Origin: Rhodospirillaceae bacterium
GTDB lineage: Bacteria; Pseudomonadota; Alphaproteobacteria; SHVP01
DNA: 64,000 nucleotides
Assembly (NCBI GenBank): GCA_002722055.1
Contig: PBKD01000005.1
Location: 1 to 64,000 of the forward strand
Reading direction: 5' to 3'
Shown here: positions 15,556 to 32,591 of the stretch, one piece after another
Layout of the letters: every line of letters begins with the position of its first letter
Numbering within the stretch: position 1 is the stretch's first letter
The notes under the pieces: generated by a model
Databases searched by the model: none
Seen by the model: the letters and a program-made list of their open reading frames with translations, nothing else
Told to the model about the DNA's origin: nothing
Position numbers and translations under genes: made by a program

Positions 15556-17487
15556 TTGTTATATATCTCTATTGTTTTTCTTCCTGGATTAGCAGCTCTT
15601 ACAGCTGGGGTTTTTTCTCGTATATTAGGCCATGGATTTGTAATGTTTATTACAAGTTTGTCAGTTTCTATAAGTTCAATTTTGTCTTTTTATGTTTTTC
15701 TAAAATTGATTTTTAGCCATAAGATAATTAACGAAAACATAACAATATTGGAATGGATAAATTCGGGAGATTTGAGTTTTTCTTGGTCAATAATGGTTGA
15801 TACTTTAACAATCGTGATGTTTGTTGTTGTAACTTCTGTATCTGCTTTAGTTCATTGGTATTCATTTGGTTACATGAAGAAAGATCCTCATAAAGCTAGG
15901 TTTTTTACCTATTTATCATTATTCACTTTTGCAATGTTAATGTTAGTTTCATCTGATAATTTTGTTCAATTATTTTTTGGATGGGAAGGGGTTGGACTAT
16001 GTTCATACTTACTTATAGGATTTTGGTTCAAAAAACCCTCTGCTAATGCAGCTGCCATTAAGGCTTTTATTGTAAACAGAGTTGGGGATTTTGGTTTTGC
16101 TCTAGGTATTATGGCTATTTTTCTATTTTTTAACTCAGTTACCTACGAAAATGTTTTTAATCAAGCTGTAAACTTTGAAGGAAAAAAGTTTCTATTTCTT
16201 AGCATGAATTTAGATATCCTAACAGTAATCACTATGCTTCTTTTTATTGGAGCTATGGGTAAATCAGCACAATTTTTATTACATACTTGGTTACCAGATG
16301 CAATGGAGGGTCCTACTCCTGTTTCTGCTTTAATTCATGCAGCTACAATGGTTACTGCAGGTGTTTTTATGGTTGTAAGGTGCTCTCCGTTATTTGAGTA
16401 TGCTCCTTTTACCTTGAATTTTATAACCTTAACTGGTGCAATTACTGCTTTTTTTGCTGCTAGTGTTGCTATAGTTCAAAATGACATTAAAAGAGTAATT
16501 GCCTATTCTACTTGTAGTCAGTTGGGTTACATGTTCATTGCTGTGGGTTTGTCAGCTTATTCAGCTGCAATCTTTCATTTATTTACTCATGCCTTTTTTA
16601 AAGCATTATTATTTCTTGCATCTGGTTCTGTCATACATGCTGTGTCCGATGAGCAAGATATGAGAAAGATGGGTGGTTTATATACTCTGTTACCTATTAC
16701 TTACTTGATGGTTTGGATTGGTTCTTTAGCTTTGGCAGGTATTCCAATTTTTTCAGGCTTTTTCTCCAAGGACCTAATTATAGAAATTGCATATGCAGGT
16801 TCTTCTTCGATATCTAACTTTGCCTTTTGGATGGCCTTATTTGCTGCTTTCTTAACAGCTTTCTATTCATGGCGTCTAATATTCATGACATTTCATGGAA
16901 AAACCCGTATAGAAAAATCTGTTATGTCTCATGTGCATGAGGCTCCTTTCTCAATGAGTATTCCAATGATACTTTTAGCTATGGGAGCAATTTTCTCAGG
17001 TATTCTATGTGTTGGAGTAATGACAGGTCATCATAACTCTGAATTTTGGGGAAACTCGCTTTTTGTATTGGCCGGAAGAGATCTGATCGAAGCGGCACAT
17101 GATTTACACTTTAGTTTAAAAATTTTACCCGTAATAATTTCTATTTTAGGTATTTTGTTAGCATGGTATTTTTATATTTATAAGATTAATATACCTAAAA
17201 TTATAGCAAATGCTAATCAACCACTTTATTTATTTTTACTAAATAAATGGTATTTTGATGAAATGTATAATTACCTTATTGTCAATCCTAGTAGGTGGCT
17301 AGGATATTTTCTATGGAAAAAAGGTGATGAAACAGTAATAGATGGTATCGGGCCTGATGGTTTTTCTGCAATGATAAATGGTATATCTAAAAAAATAGCA
17401 CTTCTTCAGAGTGGACTATTATATCATTATGCATTTGTTATGCTAGCTGGTGTTGTATTGTTTGTATCATGGTTTTTATTGGTGTAG
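15556..17487 (+). CDS. nuoL: NADH-quinone oxidoreductase subunit L
   Basis: 643 residues; the distal antiporter-like proton pump with the long lateral helix. The motifs [19 protein letters not shown] (key Glu), the [27 protein letters not shown] segment (key Lys/His residues) and the C-terminal amphipathic stretch near residue 540 are visible. Start TTG 15556, three bases after nuoK; no ATG occurs before the first helix, so a TTG start is required. Confidence 0.95.
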
Positions 17488-30200: not shown

Positions 30201-30682
30201 TTGAATCAGTTCAAGAAAGAATATCTGCGAGGGGAAATAAATATGCTTTTGTTCAACTATCTGATTTATCAGGATCCTTCGAAGTTGTTTTCTTTTCTGA
30301 ACAATTTAATAAGTATAGGGAGCAAATCATTACAGGTAGGAGGGTATTACTTTTCTCAGATTATAGGTTTAATGATGGTCAAATAAGAATAACCGTAAAT
30401 ATTTTAAAAGATTTAGACGAATCTCTTGCGGACTCAAAAGAGAGTATAGAAATTCATTTTTCAAGGCATTCAGAAAGAGAAAAAATATTAAATATACTTA
30501 ATAAAATTACTGAGATATTAAAAAAATCAAAAAATGGAGAGAGCAAAATTATGCTTAGAGTTCCAATTCCTGAAGAAAATAAAGAGGTAGAAATAGAGAC
30601 ACCTGGAGAGTATTTAATATCTCAAGATTTGATTAATAAATTGAAAATATTTCAATCTGATATAAATATAAGGAAGATTTAG
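27212..30682 (+). CDS. dnaE: DNA polymerase III subunit alpha
   Basis: 1156 residues, the normal size of the replicative polymerase DnaE1. An N-terminal PHP domain starts with HLNVHSAYSL; the palm has GPGRGSGAGSLVAW and catalytic Asp406 and Asp408 in PDFDIDF, with the third Asp562 in VKFDFLGLKTL. The helix-hairpin-helix and OB-fold (ILAGSVESVQERIS area, about residue 990) follow. Begins 15 bases after lolD and ends before the rpsB leader. Confidence 0.95.
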   Translation: MTYSNFVHLNVHSAYSLAESALRIEDIIDLCKKYQMPAIAITDNSNMFGALEFSNQCVKNGIKPIIGLSVFVEEFIKDDKYLSKFVLLAQNQEGYKNLLKLSSKSFLKSDLPSKPKVKIKDLYKYNTGLIALTGGPGSLLNKLILKKDFINSKKYLENINQLFKNRLYIEIQRHSLENEKLSESELINLAYSLNIPIVATNEPYFSDESMYLAHDALICISSGKYLDDNERVRFSSEHRFKSAEEMSLLFADLPEAIENTILIAKRCSFIVPNNEPMLPKFKTKTGETEELELTNQSEKGLIERIQSDMNFKGLNNELLEKKINDYKLRLKYELEVINKMGFAGYFLIVADFIKWAKIKNIPVGPGRGSGAGSLVAWALTITDLDPIRFGLIFERFLNPDRISMPDFDIDFCQERRDEVIDYVKDRYGEDNVAQIITFGSLQARAALRDVGRVLQLPYNLVDKICKMVPFNPANPIKLEEAIKSDERFGELIEQDETIKNLIDISIKLEGLYRHASTHAAGLVISDKPLIENVPLYRDPRSEMPITQFSMKYAELSGLVKFDFLGLKTLTVIEKTINFLKNKNINIDINNLPLDDEKTFTMLQKGESIGVFQLESSGMRELLKDSKPSKFEDLIALIALYRPGPMENIPKYISCKNGTEDPEFLHKTIEPIVSDTYGVIIYQEQVMQIAQVFAGYSLGQADILRRAMGKKIKSEMASQRDIFVKGAIKLGVENDRAEYVFDLVDKFAGYGFNKAHSAGYALISYQTAWLKANYPVEFLAATMCLDINNTDKLSIFIKESKNLGIKILQPDINLSESEFIVEEIQEKKFGIRYGLSAIKNVGKQAMDSLIKERNSNGKFLSIADFASRINPSEINKRQIESLAKSGSFDSLDINRASIFYSTERILKFSSKIYDDKITKQSNLFGNKIDDEEISIKDIKNWSELDILKEEFDSIGFYLSSHPLDSYKNGLKRLGVSSYDKILNRNKSDNGKVILAGSVESVQERISARGNKYAFVQLSDLSGSFEVVFFSEQFNKYREQIITGRRVLLFSDYRFNDGQIRITVNILKDLDESLADSKESIEIHFSRHSEREKILNILNKITEILKKSKNGESKIMLRVPIPEENKEVEIETPGEYLISQDLINKLKIFQSDINIRKI

Positions 30683-30715: not shown

Positions 30716-30846
30716 TTGATTTAAGTCATTCATCAGTTTAAAACTATAAAATAAATTCACACGCGATAATAAGTTTTGTTTATTTGCAAATCTTTCCGGT
30801 CACTTAAAAGTGATATATCGCGGAGGTCTAACCGGAGAAAGAAAAA
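30716..30846 (+). promoter_or_regulatory. rpsB leader: probable S2 autoregulatory RNA with pseudoknot, plus weak promoter
   Basis: CGCGATA (30762-30768) pairs with TATCGCG (30816-30822). Between them TTTCCGGT (30793-30800) can pair with ACCGGAGA (30831-30838), outside the first helix, so the two helices cross as a pseudoknot; a CACT/AGTG hairpin (30801-30812) sits inside. ACCGGAGA contains the rpsB ribosome-binding site, eight bases before ATG 30847, so the fold would block translation. A second GGAGG lies at 30822-30826. TTGATT (30716) and TAAAAC or TATAAA (30739-30750) may be the promoter. Structured leaders upstream of rpsB are known in bacteria; membership of a known family is not verified. 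Confidence 0.6.
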
Positions 30847-31665
30847 ATGACGTTACCAAATTTTACAATGCGCCAGCTATTAGAAGCTGGAGTTCATTTC
30901 GGCCATCAGAAACAGCGATGGAACCCTAAAATGACATCCTATCTTTTTGGTGAGAGAAATGGAATACATATAATAGATCTTAGACAAACTGTTCCTATGA
31001 TCCATGCAGCAATAAATGCACTTAGAGATGTTGTATCTAAAGGAGGAAGAGTTCTCTTTGTAGGTACTAAAAGACAAGCATCTGAAGCTGTTAAAGATGC
31101 AGCAAGTAAATGTGGGCAATATTATGTTGATCATAGATGGTTAGGTGGAATGCTTACTAATTGGAATACAATTTCTGTATCTATCAATAGGCTTAAAGAT
31201 TTTGATGATCAATTAGCTAAAGAAGATCTAGGTTTAACTAAAAGAGAGAGGCTTAATCTTCAAAGACAACGAGATAAGTTAGAACGCGCTTTAGGTGGTA
31301 TAAAAGAAATGGGAGGGCTTCCTGATATTATTTTCATTATTGATACAAATAAAGAAGAAATAGCTGTTCAGGAAGCAGTAAAATTAAATATACCTATTGT
31401 TGCTATTATTGACTCAAATAGTAATCCTGATGGAATAACATATCCTATACCTGGAAATGATGATGCACTTAGGGCTATAAATTTATATTTAGAATTGATG
31501 TCTGACGCAGTTTTAGACGGCTTACAACAGGAAATATCTAATACTAACGTTGATATAGGATCTTCGGAAGAACCAAATCCTGAAAAATTGCCTGAAGAAA
31601 CTATTGTTGAGGAAACTTCAAAAACTGATGAAAATAAAACATCAAACCAGGAAAATAATTCTTAA
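30847..31665 (+). CDS. rpsB: 30S ribosomal protein S2
   Basis: 272 residues. The N-terminus [22 protein letters not shown] and segments [13 protein letters not shown] and [33 protein letters not shown] are typical of S2. The last 45 residues or so form an acidic, Glu/Asn/Thr-rich tail with low complexity. First gene of the rpsB-tsf-pyrH-frr series; probably feedback-controlled through its leader. Confidence 0.96.
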
Positions 31666-31706: not shown

Positions 31707-32591
31707 ATGACTGATATATCAGCAAAATTAGTTAAAGAATTAAGAATCTTAACTGGCGCAGGAATGATGGACTGTAAAAAAGCACTTTCTGAATCAGGAG
31801 GTGAATTTGAAGAGGCGATTGACTGGTTAAGAACAAAAGGTCTTGCTACTGCAGCAAAGAAATCTGATAGAGATGCAAATGAGGGCTTAGTTTGTGTTAA
31901 AGTAAATAATAATTTAGGAACTATCATTGAGGTAAACTCTGAAACTGATTTTGTTGCTAGAAATGATCAATTTCAAGCTTTTGTCAGTACAATAGCTGAT
32001 GAAGCATTGTATGAAGAAGTCTCTTTAGATAATTTATTAAGCAAACCTTACCCCGACTCAGAAATAACTATTAGTGAAAAATTAAATGAGTTAGTATCTA
32101 CCATTGGTGAAAATTTATCTATCAAAAGGGTTAAAAGTATATCTGTAAAAAATGGAAAAATCTGTAGCTACATCCATAATGTTGTGGCTCCTAATTTGGG
32201 AAGAATAGGGGTTCTTGTCGGTATTGAAGCAGAAAAAGTTGATGAAGAAATTGATAACATTTCAAAGCAGATTGCAATGCACATAGCAGCCACTTCCCCC
32301 CTTTCAATATCAAAAGACGATCTTAGTGAGGATATAATTAACAAAGAAAAAGATGTCTATAAAAACCAGGCCATTGAGTCAGGTAAACCTGAAAATATTA
32401 TAAATAAAATGGTTGAAGGTAGATTAAGAAAATTTTTTGAGGAAGTTTGTTTGTATGATCAAGTCTTTGTTATTGATAATGAAACAAAAATTTCAGATTT
32501 GTTGCTTAATTTCAGTAAAGAATTTAATAACAAGGTTAGTATTAGCAGTTTTGTACGTTTTCAATTAGGAGAGAAAATACTTAAACAATAA
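31707..32591 (+). CDS. tsf: Translation elongation factor Ts
   Basis: 294 residues. Guanine nucleotide exchange factor for EF-Tu. The N-terminal UBA-like part with ELRILTGAGMMDCKKAL and the TDFVARNDQF motif, which inserts next to the EF-Tu nucleotide site, are clear; the core domains and dimer-type C-terminus follow. 41 bases after rpsB with GGGAATATT before the ATG; co-transcription with rpsB is expected. Confidence 0.95.
   Translation: MTDISAKLVKELRILTGAGMMDCKKALSESGGEFEEAIDWLRTKGLATAAKKSDRDANEGLVCVKVNNNLGTIIEVNSETDFVARNDQFQAFVSTIADEALYEEVSLDNLLSKPYPDSEITISEKLNELVSTIGENLSIKRVKSISVKNGKICSYIHNVVAPNLGRIGVLVGIEAEKVDEEIDNISKQIAMHIAATSPLSISKDDLSEDIINKEKDVYKNQAIESGKPENIINKMVEGRLRKFFEEVCLYDQVFVIDNETKISDLLLNFSKEFNNKVSISSFVRFQLGEKILKQ

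Follow-up and report, generated by a model that had tools for sequence, protein, structure and literature searches.

What occupies the spacer between dnaE, which ends at position 30682, and rpsB, which starts at 30847, in a 64,000-nt stretch of a Rhodospirillaceae bacterium genome (contig PBKD01000005.1; this whole stretch is hereafter the window), and how might it act on the synthesis of ribosomal protein S2? An original prediction, made from the sequence of the window, had placed in this 164-nt spacer an rpsB leader able to fold into a pseudoknot over the ribosome-binding site, a layout expected of feedback control by S2. The gene order around the leader is dnaE-leader-rpsB-tsf-pyrH-frr. The features of the locus are collected in Table 1, and positions in the leader are shortened to their last three digits where base pairs are named (762 for 30762).

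Table 1. Coordinates in the window of the rpsB leader, its structural elements and the genes downstream
Feature	Position	Strand	Evidence or remark
rpsB leader RNA motif (RF01815), to the base before the start codon	30758..30846	+	Rfam match; 71.3 bits with model R1
Base of P1	30758..30761	+	C758-G825 and C760-G823 around the variable 759/824 mismatch; A761 invariant
P1, 5' strand, CGCGATA	30762..30768	+	Pairs with 30816-30822; 92-100% paired per pair, two-sided changes at all seven pairs (100 leaders)
P2, weak hairpin, tentative	30775..30790 (775-779/786-790)	+	Minimum-energy fold only
Pseudoknot, 5' strand, TCCGGT, in J2-3	30795..30800	+	Locally extended to 30793; comparative alignment
P3, hairpin	30801..30812 (801-804/809-812)	+	Minimum-energy fold and Rfam alignment
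P1, 3' strand, TATCGCG	30816..30822	+	Same comparative evidence as P1 5' strand
GGAGG, 'decoy' of the original prediction, mostly P1 3' strand	30822..30826	+	GGAGG in 59/100 leaders, GGCGG in 30/100
Pseudoknot, 3' strand, ACCGGA	30831..30836	+	Locally extended to 30838; two-sided changes at 795/836, 796/835 and 797/834; 798/833 flipped in L151
GGAGA, Shine-Dalgarno (SD) sequence of rpsB	30834..30838	+	Overlaps pseudoknot 3' strand; no SD word nearer the ATG
rpsB (ribosomal protein S2)	30847..31665	+	272-aa frame; identity to S2 of relatives about 70%
tsf (elongation factor Ts), following rpsB in the operon	31707..32591	+	294-aa frame; named from position and sequence

Both predicted helices were found in the leader. 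Helix 1 (30762-30768/30816-30822) consists of seven Watson-Crick pairs out of seven, and helix 2 (30793-30800/30831-30838), formed by TTTCCGGT with ACCGGAGA, of seven Watson-Crick pairs and one G-U pair (30794/30837); the two cross without having any bases in common. The GGAGA sequence sits in the 3' strand of helix 2, 8 bases upstream of the rpsB ATG. The claim that such GC pairing would be unlikely by chance in an AT-rich genome also held: the layout, defined as two crossing helices, the first of 7 bp and containing GC, the second GC-rich, at least 6 bp long and ending in the last 20 nt, occurred once in the real leader and in none of 3000 dinucleotide-preserving shuffles of the 92-nt leader or, likewise, of the 164-nt spacer. 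The second type of helix by itself turned up in 83 of 3000 leader shuffles and 40 of 3000 spacer shuffles. The crossing helices are real and not a product of chance. The nested minimum-energy fold comprised P1, P3 and a P2-like hairpin, with an unremarkable energy (z = -1.15); given that the fold energy of the single sequence is uninformative, the case for the structure is carried by the comparative evidence.

An Rfam scan of the whole window returned a single match above threshold, RF01815 'rpsB', at 30758-30850, with a score of 40.4 bits, barely above the gathering score of 40; this comparison had been proposed along with the original prediction. As RF01815 membership requires, the motif directly precedes rpsB. 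We equate RF01815 with the rpsB motif of Meyer et al. 2009 (PMC2704228) from the shared name, place and structure. That motif was described in the dnaE-rpsB spacer of 'Ca. Pelagibacter ubique' and modelled as a pseudoknot (PMC2704228). The window leader resembles it in the dnaE-rpsB position, in P1 and in the J2-3 pseudoknot with ACCGG after P1. For the P2 and P3 stems of the motif, which vary in length within a three-stem junction, the minimum-energy fold offers putative counterparts, a P2-like hairpin and P3. It differs in having its SD fused to the pseudoknot strand, whereas most members carry a separate SD, in an ATG only 10 nt past that strand, in the shortness of P2 and P3, and in a C following UCCGGU in J2-3, where 89 of 100 leaders have a G. 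The predicted rpsB leader with a pseudoknot thus coincides with a published, curated motif. The window leader is a true but unexceptional member of it, its structure being real, conserved and described before. Part of its interest is that an AT-rich alphaproteobacterium retains this published leader of a ribosomal-protein gene, close to the limit of what the Rfam model detects. A weak second match of the leader model, at 16890-16929 (40 nt, 16 bits, E 0.022), was rejected as a second copy of the motif and is probably due to chance.

For comparative analysis, rpsB leaders were collected by an S2-protein search from relatives of the genome and from named genomes. The nearest relatives yielded no usable leader, with rpsB cut off at a contig end in G001 and the gene missing from the G002 assembly; the sole DNA match in G002 sits in an unrelated region and was dismissed as chance. 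In a sequence-only alignment of 30 leaders (A1), pair 763/821 is G-C in 25 and A-U in 5, and pair 764/820 is C-G in 24 and U-A in 5. Next, 100 alphaproteobacterial leaders were aligned (A2) with R1, a covariance model built from alphaproteobacteria that includes no helix but P1, so that the pseudoknot columns in A2 were not fitted to pairing. P1 is paired in 99.0% of cells of A2, with two-sided changes in 7 of its 9 pairs; the remaining two, C758-G825 and C760-G823, never vary and hence fall outside the covariation test. Two-sided changes that keep pairing were also found at 3 of the 6 core pseudoknot pairs of this P1-fitted alignment, namely UA to AU at 795/836 (4 leaders), CG to UA at 796/835 (1 leader) and CG to UA at 797/834 (5 leaders). 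Moreover, two leaders outside A2 carry such changes: L146 has U-A in place of C-G at 796/835, and L151, with a five-pair pseudoknot of UUCGU with ACGAG, has 798/833, which hardly varies elsewhere, flipped together with 797/834, the former from G-C to C-G, pairing being kept. The covariation score of both helices taken jointly was 0.310, compared with a mean of 0.124 for shuffles, which ignore the relatedness of the leaders, and at most 0.080 for slid partners, which account for it. Compensatory changes, the test suggested with the original prediction, are therefore present in both helices, and natural compensatory mutations are added for the pseudoknot of the rpsB motif. The predicted 8-bp length of helix 2 stood in part: the 6-bp core (30795-30800/30831-30836) is conserved, and the outer two pairs (793/838 in 13 of 99 leaders, 794/837 in 37 of 99) are a local extension.

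Covariation of both helices would be equally compatible with a two-state switch, in which the RNA forms either P1 with a free SD or the long-range helix covering the SD, never both at once. Indeed, the centroid of the nested ensemble contains the SD-covering helix without P1, and the minimum-energy fold contains P1 without the SD-covering helix. We nevertheless regard such a switch as unlikely, since exclusion is not forced on helices that share no bases, the motif was published as a pseudoknot (PMC2704228), and only short, conserved strands join P1 to the pseudoknot (A830 is present in all 100 leaders). We retain the pseudoknot, with both helices formed together, as the preferred structure.

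One detail of the predicted layout was not borne out. GGAGG at 30822-30826 had been assigned to the connecting loop as a decoy SD; however, G30822 is the P1 partner of C30762, and the comparative model adds the pairs C30760-G30823 and C30758-G30825, which makes GGAGG a structural strand rather than a conserved decoy. The letters are mostly P1 partners, and the middle A is a C in 30 of 100 leaders. A conserved SD decoy was accordingly rejected, the GGAGG/GGCGG strand pairing with the nearly invariant C760 and C758; the base-of-P1 pairs are C-G in 99 of 100 and 98 of 98 leaders. Across 30758-30761 and 30823-30830, positions C758, C760, A761, G826 and A830 show little or no variation among the 100 leaders, and the 759/824 mismatch varies among A-A, G-A, U-C and A-C. 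From this pattern, the base of P1 looks like a conserved internal-loop element, possibly a protein contact. In two leaders, L110 and L129, the GGAGG/GGCGG strand is degenerate (CGCGCTACGACT and CGCGCTAGGCC, respectively) and the pseudoknot strand AACCGGA is kept.

The 16S rRNA of the genome ends with CACCTCC followed by TTTCGG, a normal anti-SD. A separate SD of the AAGGA type, a few bases 3' of the pseudoknot strand, was found in 81 of the 100 leaders, and an SD word overlapping that strand by at least 3 bases in about 11, these counts being approximate as SD words were chosen by a simple complementarity rule. The gap between pseudoknot and start codon is 7-12 nt in the fused-SD leaders, against a median of 15. 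The fused-SD group includes the window and four members of its family (L021, L023, L025 and L040, from G009, G005, G006 and G008); L012 and L030 (G003 and G007), of the same family, fall outside it. The prediction that the pseudoknot covers the SD is thus correct for the window and part of its family but does not describe the usual layout of the motif. We tentatively suggest, as a possibility somewhat short of even, that about one in nine alphaproteobacterial leaders form a sub-layout in which the start codon lies so near the pseudoknot that the conserved strand doubles as the only SD, putting the pseudoknot and the anti-SD in direct competition. If so, repression would work through this competition, unlike in the usual arrangement with the SD outside the structure, and the fused-SD leaders would offer a natural comparison for S2 repression with the SD inside or outside. 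The fused-SD layout is the sole part that we did not find described in the papers covered; the family itself is already known.

The evidence above shows the structure, the compensatory changes that conserve it and its overlap with the SD; how would the leader act? In alphaproteobacteria the motif probably allows S2 in excess to repress its own synthesis, as judged by homology with E. coli. In this reading, P1 closes a junction with two small putative hairpins, P2 and P3, and J2-3 (UUUCCGGU) pairs with ACCGGA(GA) just upstream of the start codon; surplus S2, perhaps together with S1 as in E. coli, would then bind the folded leader and stabilise the pseudoknot, so that the 30S subunit could not load. 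As this leader has no SD apart from the pseudoknot strand, repression would be by direct occlusion. The computed duplex energy of the pseudoknot (-8.5 to -10.4 kcal/mol) exceeds in strength that of the SD/anti-SD duplex (-6.6 kcal/mol), implying that the pseudoknot, once stabilised, could directly obstruct the 30S subunit. We consider it likely, with good though not full confidence, that the rpsB-tsf mRNA carries the rpsB motif in its 5' leader, at 30758-30846, and that surplus S2 most likely stabilises its pseudoknot and blocks the 30S subunit.

The nearest functional parallel is the E. coli rpsB-tsf leader (Aseev et al. 2008, as cited in PMC10931766), likewise a conserved structured leader with S2 as presumed regulator. 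Excess S2 supplied in trans represses rpsB-lacZ through this leader (Aseev 2008, cited in PMC2704228 and PMC10931766), and S1 is needed for efficient S2 repression of rpsB-tsf (PMC10931766). In contrast to the window leader, where the SD lies within the pseudoknot, the E. coli ribosome-binding site is reported to lie outside the operator (PMC10931766), and SD occlusion is therefore not transferable from E. coli. S2 control of rpsB has been demonstrated only in gammaproteobacteria, and it is by homology that we infer it for the window leader, with S2 binding and translational repression in the Rhodospirillaceae bacterium. The energies above would also suit a structure that limits initiation on its own, setting a constant translation rate, or one that senses temperature or S1, with no feedback from S2; the S1 requirement in E. 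coli (PMC10931766) points the same way. We consider this improbable, as the position of the leader ahead of rpsB is kept across the class and the E. coli leader responds to S2 in trans (PMC10931766 and PMC2704228). S2 feedback through the pseudoknot remains the preferred mechanism.

It is very improbable that the element is a free small RNA, even though Rfam gives RF01815 the type label 'Gene; sRNA' and a separate short rpsB-leader transcript, albeit one connected with that of rpsB, was seen in Bordetella pertussis (PMC3110155). The motif runs into the rpsB ribosome-binding site at its end, stands directly before rpsB in all 100 leaders, and is separated from rpsB by no terminator that we could find. 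A scan for sigma-70 promoters near the leader gave no more matches than chance, and a search of viral contigs gave no match. A site resembling an intrinsic terminator was seen at 30873-30890, within the rpsB coding sequence.

Finally, of 289 alphaproteobacterial genomes that are at least 90% complete, 241 gave an R1 match to the motif, and those listed without one include several small genomes; the motif is present in most alphaproteobacteria. The Rfam RF01815 model seems under-sensitive for this class: five leaders that are clear members of the motif (L149, L151, L153, L156 and L157) are missed by RF01815 at E 0.1 and detected by R1.
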